A stretch of DNA of 33,709 nt from Candidatus Saccharibacteria bacterium (lineage in GTDB: Bacteria > Patescibacteriota > Saccharimonadia > Saccharimonadales > Saccharimonadaceae): NCBI GenBank assembly GCA_016789455.1, contig JAEUQU010000001.1, positions 1 through 33,709 on the forward strand, given 5' to 3'. The position numbers and the translations under genes were made by a program. The notes under the pieces were generated by a model. It was not told the DNA's origin. It made no database searches and saw only the letters and a program-made list of their open reading frames with translations. Of this stretch, positions 14,353-24,954 are shown piece after piece. Every line of letters begins with the position of its first letter. The first letter of the stretch is position 1.

Positions 14353-16275
14353 TTATCTCTTAGTAGCCGTGGTTGTAGTGGTAGCAGAAGTAGTCACGTT
14401 CTGCGTCAGCGTCAGCGCGTCCAGCCGCGCGTTGTTTTCGTTACGGTAGATGGTCAGGGTGTGCTGGCCAGCCGTCAATGTAACCGTCGGGCCATTCGCC
14501 CAGGTCCAGCTGGTGGTGGGTGCGGGCAGCTGCCAGTCCTTCTTGGAAGCGGTGTCAAAGGCATAGTAGAAGGAGTTGTTCGAAGTAGTCTGCGCAATGA
14601 CGCGGCCTTTCAGCGTGTAGCTGCCGCTGACCGGTACGGTAATGCGATAGGTAGCACGCCCGCTGCCGGTGCCGCCGGCCTGAGTGATGTATTTACCGCC
14701 CTGGGCATTGGTATCGTTGTAGATGGCCATCGGTGAGGTCATCGTGCCGGATTCCGCCTCAAAGGAGATGACGGCGGCGCTTGGCTGGCGCGTCACTGAT
14801 ATTTGTGCGGTACCAGAGTTGCCCGCAGCATCATACGCCCGCGCGGTGATGGTATAGGTGCCGGCGGTAGCAGGCACGGTCCAGGCCTGCTCGTACGGAG
14901 CGGCCGTGGCTGTACCAATCAACGTATTGTTCACCAGGAATTCCACCTTGCTGACGCCGACGTTATCGCTCGCCGTCGCCTTGATGGTGACCGTACCGCT
15001 GACACTGGCCCCAGCGGCAGGCGCGGTGATAGACACCACTGGCGCCTGGATGTCGGCAGGCGGAGCCACTGTACAAGCGGCCGTCGGATCACCGACGCTA
15101 TTGCCAGTCAGAATGGGAGCAGTACCACTGAAGGTATTGCCGCAGAACTCACCCATGGTGGCGCTATTCTGGGTGCTATTGATGGCCGAGCCAGTCCAAT
15201 CCTTGAAGCTGCTGTTCTTGACGGAGTTGCCTCCCAGGTCATCGTCGGCCGTGTCGGAGCGGAGCTTGACGTTGTAACCCCGGCTGCCTTCGATAATGGT
15301 GTTCTCAACGCGGTTGTTGTGGCCACGGAACTCGATGTTGCTGCCGGCAAAGCTGGCGCTTGGCTCGTCGTTGTACATGCAGACGCTGCCTGTCATGACG
15401 TTGCTGTGGGCGTTTTCTTTGACGTTGAAACACTCAGAACCGAACGTCCTGATGGTGGTGTTGCTGATGACGTTGCCGCTGCTTGAGTCGTTCTCGTACA
15501 TCGGCTGGGAGGTGGATTTGCGGCTGGTGCCCACATAGACGCCTTCGGCATTGTGGTACTTGTACTGGTCAACATCGTTGCCGCCGCCGTACATGCCGCA
15601 CCACTCGATGGTGGAGTTGCTGATGGTGTTGTTGAACGCGTTATTGCGCAGGCGCACACATTCGCCGCCCGAGCCGTGGATGTACATATCGTCGATGCGC
15701 ACACCGGTGATGTCGCGTGAGTCGGATGAGGCGCCGATGTAGACGGCCTTACTGTTCACCGCCCGGCCCTGCACCTCATCCTTGAAGCTGCGGGCCTCGG
15801 CTGGTGTTGCCGGGTATTCCGTGTGGGCAATGTTCTTTTGACCCTCAACCGTAAAGCCCTTCAGCGTGTAGTAGCTGTGGTTGATGTCGATGGCGTGCGC
15901 ACCCGGGCTGGTGACTACCGCCTTGAAACGGCCGGTAATATCCTTGCCGGTCTCTGGACCCTGGATGGTGATTGGCTCGGCGGCCGTGCCAGCGGTCTTG
16001 GTGATGAGCAGTTCGGTATAGTTGCCCTCAGCCAGATTGATAGTGGTGCCTGGCGTGGCGACATCAAGCGCCCTTTGGACAGTCTTGAACGGTTCGGCGG
16101 CACTGGTACCACTGTTAGTATCAAGCCCGGTCGGACTGACGTACAAGGCGGTTGAGACGGCACGCGCCGACATAGCCGCTACCATGAGCCACACAATCGC
16201 AGCCACCACGGCCGCCATCCCAGCGATATGAAGCTGCCCTACCCTTTTATTTTTTACGACGACAACATGACCCAT
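14353..16275 (-). CDS. Secreted right-handed beta-helix protein with Ig-like and CBM6-like domains
   Basis: 640 residues from the ATG at 16275, which has GAGGG at good spacing; a TTG at 16299 lacks this. A signal peptide or anchor (about 1-40, ending A-R-A) is followed by L-Y-V-S-P-T-G and P-F-K-T-V-Q-R-A-L, the usual start of pectate-lyase-like parallel beta-helices, which run to about residue 395. Next come a bacterial Ig-like domain (about 402-490, with S-I-T-A-P-A-A-G and S-K-V-E-F-L-V-N) and a CBM6-like module (about 495-625, with F-E-A-E-S-G-T-M). The C-terminus is Thr-rich. Such proteins bind or cleave polysaccharides outside the cell; no lyase catalytic residues can be assigned by eye. 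Paralogue of the product of 22657-24954. Confidence 0.85.
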   Translation of the reverse strand: MGHVVVVKNKRVGQLHIAGMAAVVAAIVWLMVAAMSARAVSTALYVSPTGLDTNSGTSAAEPFKTVQRALDVATPGTTINLAEGNYTELLITKTAGTAAEPITIQGPETGKDITGRFKAVVTSPGAHAIDINHSYYTLKGFTVEGQKNIAHTEYPATPAEARSFKDEVQGRAVNSKAVYIGASSDSRDITGVRIDDMYIHGSGGECVRLRNNAFNNTISNSTIEWCGMYGGGNDVDQYKYHNAEGVYVGTSRKSTSQPMYENDSSSGNVISNTTIRTFGSECFNVKENAHSNVMTGSVCMYNDEPSASFAGSNIEFRGHNNRVENTIIEGSRGYNVKLRSDTADDDLGGNSVKNSSFKDWTGSAINSTQNSATMGEFCGNTFSGTAPILTGNSVGDPTAACTVAPPADIQAPVVSITAPAAGASVSGTVTIKATASDNVGVSKVEFLVNNTLIGTATAAPYEQAWTVPATAGTYTITARAYDAAGNSGTAQISVTRQPSAAVISFEAESGTMTSPMAIYNDTNAQGGKYITQAGGTGSGRATYRITVPVSGSYTLKGRVIAQTTSNNSFYYAFDTASKKDWQLPAPTTSWTWANGPTVTLTAGQHTLTIYRNENNARLDALTLTQNVTTSATTTTTATKR

Positions 16276-16400
16276 CAGGCCCTCGCTTTCTCTCTCCAAC
16301 TTAAGACTTCAATGAACGTATCTTCATGATGGAATGCGCTGGCCAGAAAGTCAATATTCTAACACTATTCGTTTTGTAGTGGTAATGACACCTTTGTGTT

Positions 16401-20727: not shown

Positions 20728-21450
20728 TCAGATGAATTTCCGCTGTCGGGTCTTTGCTAGGAATCCCTGGTGCTGCGTATACTCGCGCTCGTGGAGCAGG
20801 AAGGGGTAGGCTTGTAACTTCCGGCTATACGTAAAGTTGTCGTCGTTGGCACCCAGTACTGTCTTGAGCGGTATGGTGGCGTCAACGGCATAGATGTACC
20901 GCTCAGCCTCCTTGTTTTGCTGCTGATTTAGCAGGCCGCCGATGATTACCTCTACTTCATCGATTGCATCTGGACTTGCCGCGTACTGTTCATTAAATTC
21001 AAGTGAAACCCCAACCCCCACATTACCAATCAACGAAGCCCCCGCAATCCCCGGCTTCATCAACACGATGTCCCGCCGCCCAGTCAGATTAATCACCCGC
21101 CTCACCCCCGCCTCCACATTCGCCACAATCGGCACCATCCCCACCTCACACGACGTCGTGTGCAGATCCAGCACATACTCCGCCTCGCGCACGATGGGCA
21201 GCAGCTCCGCCGCCAACCGCTCCTCATGGTTGCCGCTTGGATTGCCCGGAAAACTTCGGTTCATATCGGCATCGATACAGCGCTTTCCCGCTGCGATCGC
21301 CTCTTCGTTCGCTAATATGATCGTCAGGCCGGGATAGTCAGCCAATCGATGTTCATAATACTTAAATACCCGCCGGCCGATGTGCTCATTGCCGTGCTGA
21401 CAGCCGATAATGGCAACTCTAGTCGGTTTGTGTGATGATTTAATCCTCAT
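20728..21450 (-). CDS. M14-family amide hydrolase (succinylglutamate desuccinylase/aspartoacylase type)
   Basis: 240 residues from the ATG at 21450 (AAGGA six bases upstream); the frame reaches 21516, but the extra 22 residues do not fit the family start. Zinc ligands and catalytic residues of the AstE/AspA group are visible: G-C-Q-H-G-N-E (His19, Glu22), D-M-N-R-S-F-P-G (Asn64, Arg65), L-D-L-H-T (His97) and S-L-E-F-N (Glu151). These cytoplasmic enzymes cleave an acyl group from an N-acyl amino acid. The acyl and amino parts here are unknown. It follows the GNAT gene in one unit, which suggests linked acylation and deacylation of one compound. The unit lies under the tryptophan-type leader at 22177-22637. 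Confidence 0.85.
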   Translation of the reverse strand: MRIKSSHKPTRVAIIGCQHGNEHIGRRVFKYYEHRLADYPGLTIILANEEAIAAGKRCIDADMNRSFPGNPSGNHEERLAAELLPIVREAEYVLDLHTTSCEVGMVPIVANVEAGVRRVINLTGRRDIVLMKPGIAGASLIGNVGVGVSLEFNEQYAASPDAIDEVEVIIGGLLNQQQNKEAERYIYAVDATIPLKTVLGANDDNFTYSRKLQAYPFLLHEREYTQHQGFLAKTRQRKFI

Positions 21451-21516
21451 TTCATTTCCTTTCGTTACAGTGTTCGTAGATGGAGGGACTGGCATAGATT
21501 CCAGCCCCTCCATCAC

Positions 21517-22116
21517 CTACGCGGGCGGCAGCAGTGCCCCAACCACAATGACGGCATCGCCATCAGCGAAGCTGCAGAGCCCATCCCACCAGGCGCTCAG
21601 CTCCGCATCGGGGTGCTGTGGCCGTTCGCCGTAAAGCGGGCCGCCGTAGCAGCCGCGCGTCACCGGGAAGACCCCGCCAAGATGCGTAGCTGCCTGCTGG
21701 CCTACCCGCAGGAGTTCACTGCCGCAAGGCCCGTTCTCCCGGTTTGGATAGGCCGGTTCACAGGCTGCCATGCCTGCCGTGTACATCCGCAGTGATTGTG
21801 TACGGTACGCCAGGTAGCGCACCCGTGGCAATGCTTGCTGAGCCGCCTGAATGGCCGCCAGTACATTGCGCCGCCGCTGATAGCCGCGTCGCAGGATGAT
21901 CCCGGAGAGGTACAATATATCCCCTGCCTCCCCGATGACATCAAAGATGACAAAGCCGGCAGTGGCGCCATCTGCCACAAAACTGTAGACCAGCTGGCCA
22001 TCGGCCAGGTGGCTGGCTACGTCCTGCTCCAGCTCGGGCGTTACCGGCCGGGCAAAGCCCTCAGCCGCGATCGCCACGGCGTCACGCATAGCGGGATGAG
22101 TCCTGACAAGGTGCAT
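21517..22116 (-). CDS. GNAT-like N-acyltransferase
   Basis: 199 residues, soluble. The fold reads as GNAT: V-Y-S-F-V-A-D-G-A-T-A-G-F-V-I-F-D-V-I in strands 2-4, then L-Y-L-S-G-I-I-L-R-R-G-Y-Q-R-R-R, a variant of the acyl-CoA pyrophosphate loop (usually Q/R-x-x-G-x-G/A), and a helix. The C-terminal half has several cysteines and a W-W-D-G segment. GGAGG stands six bases before the ATG. It is the first full gene after the Trp T-box and leader-peptide attenuator, and is followed by the M14 acylase. The substrate is unknown; given the regulation, an amino acid or peptide acceptor is a fair guess. Without the leader I would have called it a generic acetyltransferase. Confidence 0.68.
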   Translation of the reverse strand: MHLVRTHPAMRDAVAIAAEGFARPVTPELEQDVASHLADGQLVYSFVADGATAGFVIFDVIGEAGDILYLSGIILRRGYQRRRNVLAAIQAAQQALPRVRYLAYRTQSLRMYTAGMAACEPAYPNRENGPCGSELLRVGQQAATHLGGVFPVTRGCYGGPLYGERPQHPDAELSAWWDGLCSFADGDAVIVVGALLPPA

Positions 22117-22176
22117 CGTCTGCCTCCATCGTAGGGTTTTTGGCTGTCGAGACGGGCATGCTTACCCGCCTCTTCC

Positions 22177-22240
22177 AAACAAAACGCCCCGCGTGGACGG
22201 GGCGCTGTCTGCCGAAAAATCAGACATCACAAAACCGTCC
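22177..22240 (-). terminator. Leader-peptide attenuator terminator with competing antiterminator
   Basis: On the minus strand, CGCCCCG (22204-22198) pairs with CGGGGCG (22191-22185) over a six-base loop, followed by TTTTGTTT (22184-22177): a strong intrinsic terminator 60 bases before the GNAT start. The bases just after the leader stop, GGACGG (22240-22235), are complementary to CCGTCC (22200-22195), which includes part of the terminator's 5' arm. The two pairings exclude each other. A further hairpin, TGTCTG/CAGACA (22226-22206), would sit within the antiterminator. This is the layout of ribosome-mediated attenuation. Confidence 0.75.
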
Positions 22241-22314
22241 TACGGAGAGGCGCGCCAGTGCCACCAGAAGGCGGCAATGTGATTGGTGATGTAGTTGGTA
22301 TGTGATGAATGCAT
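22240..22314 (-). CDS. Tryptophan-rich leader peptide (24 residues)
   Basis: ATG (22314-22312) with AAGGA (22325-22321) six bases upstream, ending at TAG (22242-22240). The peptide's C-terminal part reads A-A-F-W-W-H-W-R-A-S-P. Three Trp codons in four are placed just before the stop and upstream of an alternative-hairpin terminator, as in trp operon leader peptides. A ribosome finishing at the stop would cover GGACGG and let the terminator form; one stalled at the Trp codons would leave it free for antitermination. It lies after the T-box terminator, so two tryptophan checks act in series. I know of no exact match for the peptide. Confidence 0.75.
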   Translation of the reverse strand: MHSSHTNYITNHIAAFWWHWRASP

Positions 22315-22344
22315 GTCTATTCCTTGCTGCATATCGGCTAAATT

Positions 22345-22402
22345 GAAAAGCCCTTGCAGATATTCACAGCCGGCCAAAGCCGAACTTTCAATATCTGCAA
22401 GG
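22345..22402 (-). terminator. T-box terminator hairpin
   Basis: A perfect 13-bp stem, CCTTGCAGATATT (22402-22390) with AATATCTGCAAGG (22364-22352), 25-base loop, then GCTTTTC. The 5' arm shares CCTTGC with the T-box antiterminator, so only one can form. The T run is short, so termination may be leaky. Confidence 0.75.
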
Positions 22403-22603
22403 ACCTTTACGGTGGTGCCACCTTGCTTCGCCGCGCCATCACTGCCGCGACCTTGGTGCCAGCAAAAACTGGCTGAAGCATGATGACGGACTTCTGCCGG
22501 AGCCCGCTACTTTCGCGCCACACCCCGTCTTGCGTGAGGGTGGCGCGATGGTTCACGGGTCAGCTCGCAGGGACCATATTCCCTGCTCAAACGCTTTTGA
22601 TGG
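22345..22603 (-). promoter_or_regulatory. T-box riboswitch, predicted tRNA-Trp specific, ultrashort Stem I type
   Basis: Read on the minus strand from the promoter. (1) A short hairpin GCAGGGA/TCCCTGC (22586-22567) has the loop ATATGG, with the Trp codon TGG at 22576-22574 as specifier. (2) A Stem II follows, CGCGCCAC/GTGGCGCG (22547-22514), flanked by GAA (22554-22552) and AGTA (22511-22508), the S-turn pair known from actinobacterial ultrashort T-boxes. (3) A short hairpin GCCAG/CTGGC resembles Stem III. (4) The antiterminator is GCAAGG, the seven-base bulge TGGCACC, ACC, loop, GGT, CCTTGC (22426-22397), matching the canonical UGGNACC bulge. TGGC implies a tRNA with discriminator G73, as in bacterial tRNA-Trp. 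(5) CCTTGC is also the 5' arm of a 13-bp terminator. Uncharged tRNA-Trp should favour read-through. Confidence 0.85.
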
Positions 22604-22608
22604 TGTTC

Positions 22609-22637
22609 AATATAGCACAAGTGCTTTGATTTGTCAA
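22609..22637 (-). promoter_or_regulatory. Consensus sigma-70 promoter of the T-box leader
   Basis: On the minus strand, a perfect TTGACA (22637-22632), a 17-base spacer and TATATT (22614-22609). Transcription would start near 22602 and run through the T-box, leader peptide and GNAT/M14 genes. It lies just beyond the 3' end of the beta-helix gene at 22657. Confidence 0.88.
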
Positions 22638-22656: not shown

Positions 22657-24954
22657 CTACTGTCGAATCAACACTATCCGATCCACCATCGACCCCGCCT
22701 CCCGATACTGCAACGTCATAGTATGCGTCCCGGCAGTCAAAGTAAACTTGGGATTGTTAGTAGCGTCATACACCCAGCTGGTAGATGGCTCCTGCAGGTC
22801 CCACATGGCATACGTCCCGCTATCAAACTTCACATTGAACGAGTCCGCATTGCCGCTGGCCGCCTTGATGTAGCCGGCAATCATGTACGTACCATTGGTG
22901 GGCACCTGGATGTTGTACGTTGCCGTGCCCGACGACTTACCAATCACATACTTACCACCAGAAGCACCCGTCTCCGACTGCTCAACGATGCCGCCACTCT
23001 CAGCACCCGCCTCCGCCTCAAACAGGCTGGTGGCCGTGATGGCACCCGGCGCAGTCGGTGCAGTGGCCGCCGTGTTGGCAGTCAGCGAGAGCGCATCTAC
23101 CTTGGTGCCGTTCTCTTTCTTGTAGAGTGTTAGCGTGTGCTTGCCGGCAGTCAGGCTGACGGTCGGTCCAGTGGCCCAGGTCCAGCTGGTGGTGCCGGCG
23201 GTCAGGTTCCAGTCTTGGCGAGAGGCAGTGTCAAAGGCGTATGAGAACGAGTTACTGGAGCTGGTAGGCGCGATCACGCGGCCCTTCAGCGTGTAGCTGC
23301 CAGCGGTCGTGACGTTGAACGTGTAGGTCACGCGCCCCGTGCCGGAGCCGCTCAGCTGGGCGACATACTTGCCGCCTTGGGCGCTTGGGTCGTTGTGGGC
23401 GGCCATCGGCGAGACCAGCGCGCCGGTCTCGGCCTCAAAGTTGATGTTCTGGGTCGTCGGTGAAGCAGGAGTGGTCACGTTGACTACGTTCGATGCCAGC
23501 GATTCCGTACCGGCCGCGTCCACCGCCTTCACGTAGTAGCTGTACGCAGTGCCGCCGGTCAGCTCGGACGAGGTGTAGGCGCGGTCGGTGACGTTGCCGA
23601 TCTTGGTGTCGTTGCGGTACACGTTGTAGGAGATGGCCGAGACCGCACCGCCTGGCGCCGTCCAGCCCAGCTTGACCTCGGTGGAAGTTGAGGATTGTAC
23701 CGTCAGTCCGCTTGGCGCCTGGATGCCGACCTTGGTGTCAGCACACGCCTTGGCCGGATCGCCAACGTTATTGGCCTCCTGGATAGCCCCGTTGGCCGCA
23801 AAGGTATTGCCGCAGATCTCACCCAGCTGCGCCACCGCCTGCTTGACGCTGATAGCCGCAGCAGCCGAGTTCTTCAGGGCGCTCAGACGGATGGCGTTGC
23901 CGCCTTTGTCATACGTGGAGGAATCCGACCAGAACTTGACGCTGTAGCCCCGGCTGCCGTCGACGACGGTATTCTCAACCCGGTTGTTGTCGCCGCGGAA
24001 CTCAATGTTGCTGCCGTTGTAGTCAATCGGCTCGTCGTTATACATACACTCGCTGTTCTGGATGATGTTGTGGTGCGCGTTCTCTTTGACGTTGAAGCAC
24101 TCTGAACCAAAGGTGCGGATGGTCGTTTCGGTTACCAGGATGCCGTTACTGGTGTCGTTGGCATACATCGGCTGAGTGGTCGACTTGGGGCTGGTGCCCA
24201 CATAGACGCCTTCGGCATTGTGGTACTTGTACTGTGAAGAATCGTCGCCCGCGCCATACATGCCGCACCACTGGATGACCGAGCGGCTGACCGCACTGGC
24301 CATGGCATTGTTGCGGAAGCGGACACATTCGCCGCCGGAGCCTTGCAGGAACATGTCATCGATGCGCGTGCCGACGATATCGCGCGAGTCATTGGCCGCG
24401 CCCACGTACACCAGCTTGCTGTTGACGGCGCGTGACTGCACGCTGTCCTTGAAGCCGCGGATGTTAGCAGGAGTCGTCGGGTATTCACCGCGGGCAATCG
24501 CCTTCTGTCCGTCAACCGTAAAGCCCTTCAGCGTGTAGTAGCTGTGGTTGATATCAATGACGTGGCCGCCGGTGCCGTACACCACCGCCTTGTACCGGCC
24601 GTTGATGTCCTTGCCGGTCTCCGGTCCCTGTAGCGTGATGGGATTGGCACTGGTGCCAGCAACCTTGGTGGTCACCTTGCCGGTATAGACCCCCTCTGCC
24701 AAGTTAATCACCGCGCCGGGCTGAGCCAGATCCATCGCCCGCTGGATAGTCTTGAATGGTGCCGAGGCGCTGGTGCCAGTGTTGGCATCAGATCCGGAGG
24801 GACTGACGTAATACGTCACCGTCGCCGCGTTGGCTGCGAAGTAAATCAGTGCGCCGACCGCCACGACGATACTGACGCCGCATGCGATGACAAGAGAGCG
24901 CAGCCGCGAGTCGCGACGGCGCCTGGAGCTAAGTTTGGTGCCTTTTTTTGGCAT
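22657..24954 (-). CDS. Secreted right-handed beta-helix protein with FnIII and two CBM6-like domains
   Basis: 765 residues: very basic N-terminus (S-R-R-R-R-D-S-R-L-R), membrane or signal helix (about 19-42, ending A-N-A-A), beta-helix (about 46-395) starting Y-Y-V-S-P-S-G and P-F-K-T-I-Q-R-A-M, a fibronectin type III domain (about 408-493, with Y-N-V-Y-R-N and Y-S-Y-Y-V-K-A-V-D-A-A-G), then two CBM6-like modules (about 498-628 and 640-765, each opening F-E-A-E-T/A-G). The helix and first CBM are closely similar to the protein at 14353-16275, but the middle domain is different and the second CBM is extra. AAGG lies eight bases before the ATG. Likely a surface or secreted glycan-binding or glycan-cleaving protein. 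Confidence 0.87.
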   Translation of the reverse strand: MPKKGTKLSSRRRRDSRLRSLVIACGVSIVVAVGALIYFAANAATVTYYVSPSGSDANTGTSASAPFKTIQRAMDLAQPGAVINLAEGVYTGKVTTKVAGTSANPITLQGPETGKDINGRYKAVVYGTGGHVIDINHSYYTLKGFTVDGQKAIARGEYPTTPANIRGFKDSVQSRAVNSKLVYVGAANDSRDIVGTRIDDMFLQGSGGECVRFRNNAMASAVSRSVIQWCGMYGAGDDSSQYKYHNAEGVYVGTSPKSTTQPMYANDTSNGILVTETTIRTFGSECFNVKENAHHNIIQNSECMYNDEPIDYNGSNIEFRGDNNRVENTVVDGSRGYSVKFWSDSSTYDKGGNAIRLSALKNSAAAAISVKQAVAQLGEICGNTFAANGAIQEANNVGDPAKACADTKVGIQAPSGLTVQSSTSTEVKLGWTAPGGAVSAISYNVYRNDTKIGNVTDRAYTSSELTGGTAYSYYVKAVDAAGTESLASNVVNVTTPASPTTQNINFEAETGALVSPMAAHNDPSAQGGKYVAQLSGSGTGRVTYTFNVTTAGSYTLKGRVIAPTSSSNSFSYAFDTASRQDWNLTAGTTSWTWATGPTVSLTAGKHTLTLYKKENGTKVDALSLTANTAATAPTAPGAITATSLFEAEAGAESGGIVEQSETGASGGKYVIGKSSGTATYNIQVPTNGTYMIAGYIKAASGNADSFNVKFDSGTYAMWDLQEPSTSWVYDATNNPKFTLTAGTHTMTLQYREAGSMVDRIVLIRQ

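Follow-up and report, generated by a model that had tools for sequence, protein, structure and literature searches.

Likely two sensors of tRNA-Trp charging in series ahead of a GNAT-M14 operon in a CPR-type genome

Does one transcript carry two successive sensors of tRNA-Trp charging ahead of an acyltransferase-deacylase operon? The locus that raises this question lies in a stretch of 33,709 nucleotides from a Candidatus Saccharibacteria bacterium, the whole of which is called the window here. We consider the answer likely to be yes, with a probability of about 0.8: a T-box-like riboswitch and a leader-peptide attenuator appear to act one after the other. The anatomy, the match to tRNA-Trp, the linkage to trpS and the Trp leaders of relatives with their covarying antiterminators are shown from the sequence. 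The function of the T-box, the AND logic and the substrate of the enzymes are inferred. All claims rest on sequence inference throughout, without experimental tests.

Anatomy of the minus-strand leader

The leader (22637-22117, minus strand) consists of a promoter, a T-box-like RNA, a first terminator (terminator 1), a 24-codon ORF and an attenuator, followed by the GNAT and M14 genes (Table 1). A sequence-only reading had claimed this order of elements, with W-W-H-W codons in the ORF and a second terminator faced by an antiterminator. The claim held, with every element found where it had been placed and on the minus strand. The sole strong promoter of the leader (22637-22609) lies upstream of the T-box, and both switches are therefore on one transcript.

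Table 1. Features of the leader and operon in the window, with one cassette from a relative
Feature	Position	Strand	Remarks
Promoter, sigma-70-type, TTGACA-17-TATATT	22609..22637	-	11/12, extended -10 TG
T-box Stem I, ultrashort, GCAGGGA-AUAUGG-UCCCUGC	22567..22586	-	specifier UGG 22576-22574, terminal loop
Stem II with S-turn	22500..22566	-	GAA 22554-22552 opposite AGUAG 22511-22507
Candidate stem IIA/B pseudoknot, F-box CCGUCA 22489-22484	22475..22499	-	possible CGG:CCG and GAAG:CUUC helices
Candidate Stem III GUCGCG...CGCGGC, then GAA	22430..22451	-	from fold; assignment uncertain
T-box antiterminator GCAAGG-[UGGCACC]-ACC GUAAA GGU-CCUUGC	22397..22426	-	bulge 22420-22414
Terminator 1, CCUUGCAGAUAUU...AAUAUCUGCAAGGGCUUUUC	22345..22402	-	excludes T-box antiterminator
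Leader peptide ORF, MHSSHTNYITNHIAAFWWHWRASP and stop, 24 codons	22240..22314	-	SD AAGGA 22325-22321
Leader ORF Trp codons 17, 18, 20	22266-22264, 22263-22261, 22257-22255	-	W-W-H-W
Antiterminator 2: region 2 GGACGG 22240-22235, region 3 CCGUCC 22200-22195	22195..22240	-	
Terminator 2 (attenuator), AGCGCCCCGUCCACGCGGGGCGUU UUGUUUGG	22175..22206	-	hairpin 22206-22183
GNAT-like acyltransferase, 199 aa, in frame	21517..22116	-	SD GGAGG 22127-22123
M14-type deacylase (AstE/AspA family)	20728..21516	-	zinc ligands, nearest structure aminoacylase 3
M14-splitting cassette of a relative	L183:1480-1495 (G229:C15:149439-150135)		SD-like + CUU UGG C

The T-box-like element and its predicted tRNA

The 256-nt T-box region gave a folding z of -6.66 against shuffles. 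Its antiterminator is formed by A1/A2 pairing (GCAAGG/CCUUGC) together with ACC/GGU around the bulge, and terminator 1 reuses the same CCUUGC as the 5' arm of a stem of 13 uninterrupted pairs that ends in a U-rich tail. Terminator 1 folds at -30.6 kcal/mol, against -8.8 kcal/mol for the antiterminator. The genome was surveyed by motif search and in short stretches, each GGTGGNACC site being put through a test of A1, A2 and terminator. Just one of 60 such sites, that of the window, combined an antiterminator with a competing terminator, and no second T-box was found in the genome by this antiterminator test. First-order simulated sequence of about 10 Mb contained 5476 TGGNACC sites on its two strands, none of which satisfied a strict version of the test.

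Upstream of the antiterminator, an S-turn (GAA/AGUAG) and an F-box (CCGUCA) occur at a spacing near-identical to that of the Nocardia ileS T-box, the pseudoknot pairing being only a candidate; neither motif had been named in the sequence-only reading. As sequence, both motifs and a UGGN bulge are common to the window and the actinobacterial ultrashort-stem-I (class II) ileS T-boxes (Nocardia farcinica, Mycobacterium tuberculosis), which likewise carry the specifier in the loop that closes a short Stem I. The N. farcinica ileS element has the same Stem II strand order (GAA, then AGUAG) and the same F-box as the window (PMC7583486), and the hairpin GGG-AUAUCA-CCC of the Nonomuraea ileS T-box is comparable to the Stem I found here. 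In contrast to these ileS elements, the predicted switch of the window is Trp-specific and has an antiterminator/terminator pair rather than an SD sequestrator; it also belongs to a CPR-type genome, does not precede an aminoacyl-tRNA synthetase gene and is RF00230-negative.

The last of these points bears on membership of the T-box family. RF00230 gave no match at any threshold, even E = 10, on the window, its own genome or the T-box region; the Nonomuraea ileS ultrashort T-box, used as a comparator, reached 40.4 bits with RF00230, under the 93-bit cut-off. When the three-motif pattern of S-turn, F-box and T-box was searched in 393 genomes of the class, only the window fitted, the other seven matches being at the level of a reversed-pattern control. 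The T-box pattern was not found in viral contigs, and no second example was found by the bulge motif in 100 relatives. DNA similarity to the leader in 100 relatives, phages and plasmids was absent or limited to chance-level fragments. No homologue having been found, the T-box stems lack support from covariation. The base 3' of the specifier is U instead of the usual purine, which also counts against a T-box reading, and a long Stem I is as a rule required for control of transcription, T-boxes with an ultrashort one being mostly translational (PMC7583486).

Specifier, discriminator-matched bulge and competing antiterminator and terminator meet three of the criteria for a T-box, and a match with RF00230 is lacking. 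The element has the anatomy of a T-box-like switch; the covariance model does not support its membership of the family. We regard this part as likely to be genuine, its function being inferred from sequence alone. The sequence-only reading had proposed a T-box and named an Rfam T-box model search as a check on it. The type is now refined to ultrashort-stem-I, and the T-box half is left without a covariance-model match or a homologue.

Several other candidates were rejected. A PK-repBA match (E 0.0055) at 22282-22406 was due to the terminator hairpin alone, at 23.8 of 45 bits. Stem II cannot be taken as a canonical Stem I with a CCA specifier, the S-turn strand order being wrong and tRNA-Pro carrying A73. 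Where AAGGTGGCACCACC recurred with one mismatch in relatives, it belonged either to coding sequence or, in L036, L039 and L041, to an inverted repeat, and not to a T-box. The inverted repeat, near position 1504 in these three genomes, is a conserved AGGTGGCACCACA ... TGTGGTGCC that resembles the T-box motif. Separately, an RF00230-like T-box of 59.9 bits, below the cut-off, was seen on a megaplasmid of Thermomicrobium roseum (L202:1501-1755), where it precedes an ORF whose C-terminal part is ATP-grasp and LysX-like.

Which tRNA would the element read? Among the 44 tRNA genes located in the genome, G73 is limited to those for Asn, Asp, Gln, Ser and Trp, and the tRNA-Trp has anticodon CCA, G73 and an encoded CCA (3' GCCA). 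The triplets readable in the loop and at its edge are AUA, UAU, AUG, UGG and GGU. All but UGG lead to tRNAs with A73, which mismatches the C of UGGC. This leaves tRNA-Trp as the sole tRNA of the 44 compatible with both loop and bulge, and its 3' end GCCA is predicted to pair with UGGC of the bulge (22420-22414). Because only UGG fits, the discriminator is G73 and the leader codons are those for Trp, specifier, bulge and leader agree on Trp. The earlier claim of this threefold agreement held in the 44-tRNA comparison.

Trp leaders, the operon and a possible frameshift site in relatives

In the second element of the window, region 2 (GGACGG) begins at the stop codon, 17 nt past the last of the Trp codons. 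Antiterminator 2 folds at -22.5 kcal/mol, against -23.9 kcal/mol for terminator 2, and the leader and attenuator region has a folding z of -3.15. Clustered Trp codons before an intrinsic terminator, with a rival region 2:3 helix, meet the criteria for an attenuator; stalling of the ribosome is inferred. The arrangement is that of E. coli trpL and actinobacterial trp leaders, which likewise have a short ORF, its Trp codons towards the end, and then rival 2:3 and 3:4 helices.

Trp leaders stand at the same position in relatives, for example MNKQTLVNITWLTDSLSDGLFRVF, MNRQTVIFSAYWFTDRSSGGLFRVF, MSQVAASRAYWFTDSNSGGLLRVL and MSHITNSSYWYIDTSRGDL, and further MKTNYQTSRWWHRSR, MIYRSQTNQNWWYRT and MHIATSNAYWRTDTSSGGLFRVL. 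In these relatives the distance from the Trp codon to the start of region 2 is 15-23 nt and in most cases 17-19 nt, with the exceptions of L182 (a doubtful case, 9 nt) and of L177 and L221, for which the script found none. The region 2:3 helices are 6-13 bp long and covary (UCUGACGGUUU:AGACCGUCAGA, UCUGGCGGUUU:AGACCGCCAGA, GUGGCGAUCU:AGGUCGCCAC). When a leader with an attenuator was tested for automatically, 13 of the 19 upstream regions passed; of 1140 shuffles 2 did so, and of 564 unrelated stretches none. Most relatives have a -10 box about 8-10 nt before the leader ATG and no T-box; with the box so near the ATG, the leader mRNA is probably leaderless there. The window differs in that its leader has an SD and a T-box lies upstream. 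The relatives' leaders mostly have one Trp codon. A GNAT-M14(-trpS) operon as target and, in the relatives, mostly single Trp codons and leaders right at the promoter set this family apart from classical trp attenuators. Although inferred from sequence alone, the leader-peptide attenuator is very likely genuine.

Beyond the Trp codon, GG(L)(F/L)(R/C)V(L/F) is kept in the leaders of L167-L169, L171, L175, L176, L178, L183 and L226. In L183 a different frame of the same RNA is translated, a hint that the RNA itself is conserved beyond the antiterminator.

The genes behind these leaders form an operon in relatives. In about 15 of them, GNAT and M14, mostly then followed by trpS, stand behind a Trp-codon leader and attenuator. 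The order GNAT-M14-trpS is kept in one orientation, often with overlapping genes, and trpS follows M14 directly in 15 loci (TrpRS profile). The window GNAT is a weak assignment by Pfam (Acetyltransf_1, E = 0.007, below the cut-off), and its structure model, from two sequences, is poor; it scored 20.2 bits (conditional E 2e-8) against a profile made from the GNATs of relatives alone. From the trpS linkage in relatives and this profile match, it follows that the window operon is a Trp operon in whose lineage trpS is lacking. The genome's own trpS lies elsewhere, behind an rsmG-like gene, and neither switch was found directly upstream of it. A GNAT search in 60 relatives and two genome-wide exact-peptide scans for GNAT and M14 found none, only close relatives being detectable in this way.

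The sequence-only reading had held that the target is an acyltransferase/acylase pair rather than trp genes or trpS, and this is corrected by the trpS operon of about 15 relatives. It had also pointed to related genomes for the same order of elements: leader, terminator and GNAT-M14 were recovered, and the T-box was not. Loss of the Trp codons in homologous leaders would, by that reading, have refuted it; with Trp codons and rival helices conserved, the leader half survives.

The M14 protein matched PF24827 (AstE/AspA) with E 3.8e-16, and its zinc ligands H19, E22 and H97 (alignment numbering) are invariant. By sequence it is closest to aspartoacylase and aspartoacylase-2. The closest fold to its structure model (pLDDT 85.7) is that of murine aminoacylase 3, the N-acetyl-tyrosine complex of that enzyme included, with aspartoacylase next; aminoacylase 3 acts on N-acetyl-aromatic amino acids. 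Recovery of Trp from N-acylated Trp is inferred to be the likely function of the products. As to N-acyl-tryptophan being the substrate, we remain tentative and lean slightly against it.

Some loci depart from the common layout. At about 2100-2350 of L226 (G029), a Trp leader and attenuator are followed by a DAHP synthase-like gene and then by GNAT, M14 and trpS. M14-trpS operons with a Trp leader and no recognisable GNAT occur in L169, L174, L178 and L221. On plasmid pCgly1 of Corynebacterium glyciniphilum (L200:2474-4083), trpS is followed by a GNAT gene, possibly as a resistance cassette. In the window itself, the operon region is flanked on the same strand by a pair of secreted proteins (14353-16299 and 22657-24954) that resemble each other and carry DUF1565 and golvesin-like domains at the C-terminus.

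A +1 frame change at CUU UGG divides the GNAT gene in 11 relatives (L166, L167, L168, L170, L171, L172, L175, L176, L177, L220 and L222). The site lies at positions 1075-1106, and in L220 at 841 (M14 on +). Reading on in frame 0 through CUU UGG gives 70-80 aa, with the stop 2-12 codons past CUU; continued in the +1 frame, the gene would encode 200-207 aa, much as the homologues without a split do (199 and 207 aa). CTTTGGC is invariant in 11 aligned loci, in which only 5 of 87 other columns are invariant; L220, the twelfth locus, has CTTTGGT (CUU UGG U). A purine-rich, SD-like stretch precedes the site in most, as in CGGAGGUUA CUU UGG C and CGGGAGUAU CUU UGG C, though L166, L175, L177 and L183 have no stretch of at least four bases there that matches the anti-SD exactly. 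In L183 (G229), where no GNAT was found, it is the M14 gene that is divided by the cassette CGGGGGUUA CUU UGG C (Table 1), as though the switch had been transferred to the first gene of the operon. The window GNAT has no CUU-UGG frameshift site; its genome has the T-box where relatives have the frameshift.

The relatives' site resembles that of prfB (RF2), an SD-like stretch with UAU CUU UGA C, in its SD-like purines, its CUU, the slow UGx codon and the next base C, and here, as in prfB, the full product would require a +1 shift. It differs from prfB in that the slow codon is UGG, so that the sensed quantity would be Trp-tRNA charging and not RF2, and in that it lies in a GNAT or M14 gene. A 2016 review of starvation frameshifting (PMC5009743) knew of no trans-frame products with a starvation-specific function, and no closer precedent for a Trp hungry-codon switch was found in the open-access literature searched. 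We consider natural hungry-codon frameshifting that responds to Trp fairly likely in these relatives. This is an inference, the shifting being unmeasured; such a frameshift would be released when Trp-tRNA is scarce.

Proposed mechanism and alternative readings

In the proposed mechanism, uncharged tRNA-Trp would bind the T-box through its anticodon CCA at UGG and its 3' GCCA at the bulge UGGC. The bound tRNA would stabilise the antiterminator and let the polymerase pass terminator 1, which charged tRNA-Trp would not do. Further downstream, scarcity of Trp-tRNA would stall the ribosome at WW-H-W and leave GGACGG free to pair with CCGUCC; terminator 2 would then be blocked and GNAT and M14 transcribed. 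With Trp-tRNA plentiful, a ribosome at the stop codon would mask GGACGG and terminator 2 would form. The two sensors together would make an AND gate on low tRNA-Trp charging.

The alternative that survives best is that only the leader attenuator works, the T-box-like region being decayed or fortuitous and terminator 1 serving to end stray transcripts. In its favour, there is neither a covariance-model match nor a T-box homologue in anything searched, and relatives have their promoter right before the leader without a T-box. Against it, the same six bases serve antiterminator and terminator, the bulge is intact and fits the G73 of tRNA-Trp, and the specifier, the S-turn and the F-box are found together in the correct order. 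Moreover, with the only strong promoter upstream of the T-box and an SD at the leader, the T-box must be transcribed first. We consider this alternative unlikely.

A second alternative, that the second element controls translation of GNAT rather than termination, follows the precedent of Bacillus subtilis rtpA (anti-TRAP). There, as predicted for the window, a Trp T-box precedes a leader peptide and both sense tRNA-Trp charging. The rtpA leader peptide acts on translation, and its product is anti-TRAP. This is the one described pair of T-box and leader peptide, as far as the sequence-only reading and general knowledge go, and a hairpin and an SD do come after the leader ORF of the window. Against it, a U-rich tail follows the GC-rich hairpin of terminator 2, about 55 nt separate the end of its stem from the GNAT SD, and relatives have the same leader-terminator layout with covarying rival helices. 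We find this alternative very improbable; unlike rtpA, the window has two steps that are both predicted to be transcription attenuation, and its products are a GNAT/M14 pair.

That the T-box reads another tRNA, such as Met (AUG) or Tyr (UAU) in the AUAUGG loop, gains some support from the Nonomuraea ileS loop AU-AUC-A, alignment by whose AU makes AUG rather than UGG the specifier, but is highly unlikely given that the genome's own tRNA-Met, -Tyr, -Ile and -Gly carry A73, mismatching the C of UGGC, that the only G73 among the candidates is that of tRNA-Trp, and that the element after the T-box on the same transcript is Trp-coded.

With two tRNA-Trp sensors in series as the preferred reading for the window, Trp control would be exerted twice at transcription in its lineage, and once at transcription and often again in translation in relatives; this too is inferred. 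A bolder reading, which we consider more likely than not, is that the operon family is under three unrelated devices that sense tRNA-Trp charging: 1) a T-box in the window genome; 2) leader attenuation in the window genome and most relatives; and 3) a +1 frameshift at CUU-UGG(-C) in GNAT or M14 in relatives.

The finding would place a T-box-like riboswitch in a CPR-type genome, with an ultrashort Stem I joined to transcription termination, and would tie a GNAT/deacylase pair to Trp supply in bacteria of small genome. The stacking of two sensors of one tRNA makes AND-gate logic on a single signal testable. In relatives, sites, 0-frame products and fusion products are exactly predicted and offer a ready test of whether hungry-codon frameshifting is a natural switch. 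If this holds true, nature would be using hungry-codon frameshifting for regulation in these relatives, something of which no example was known to the review cited above (PMC5009743).
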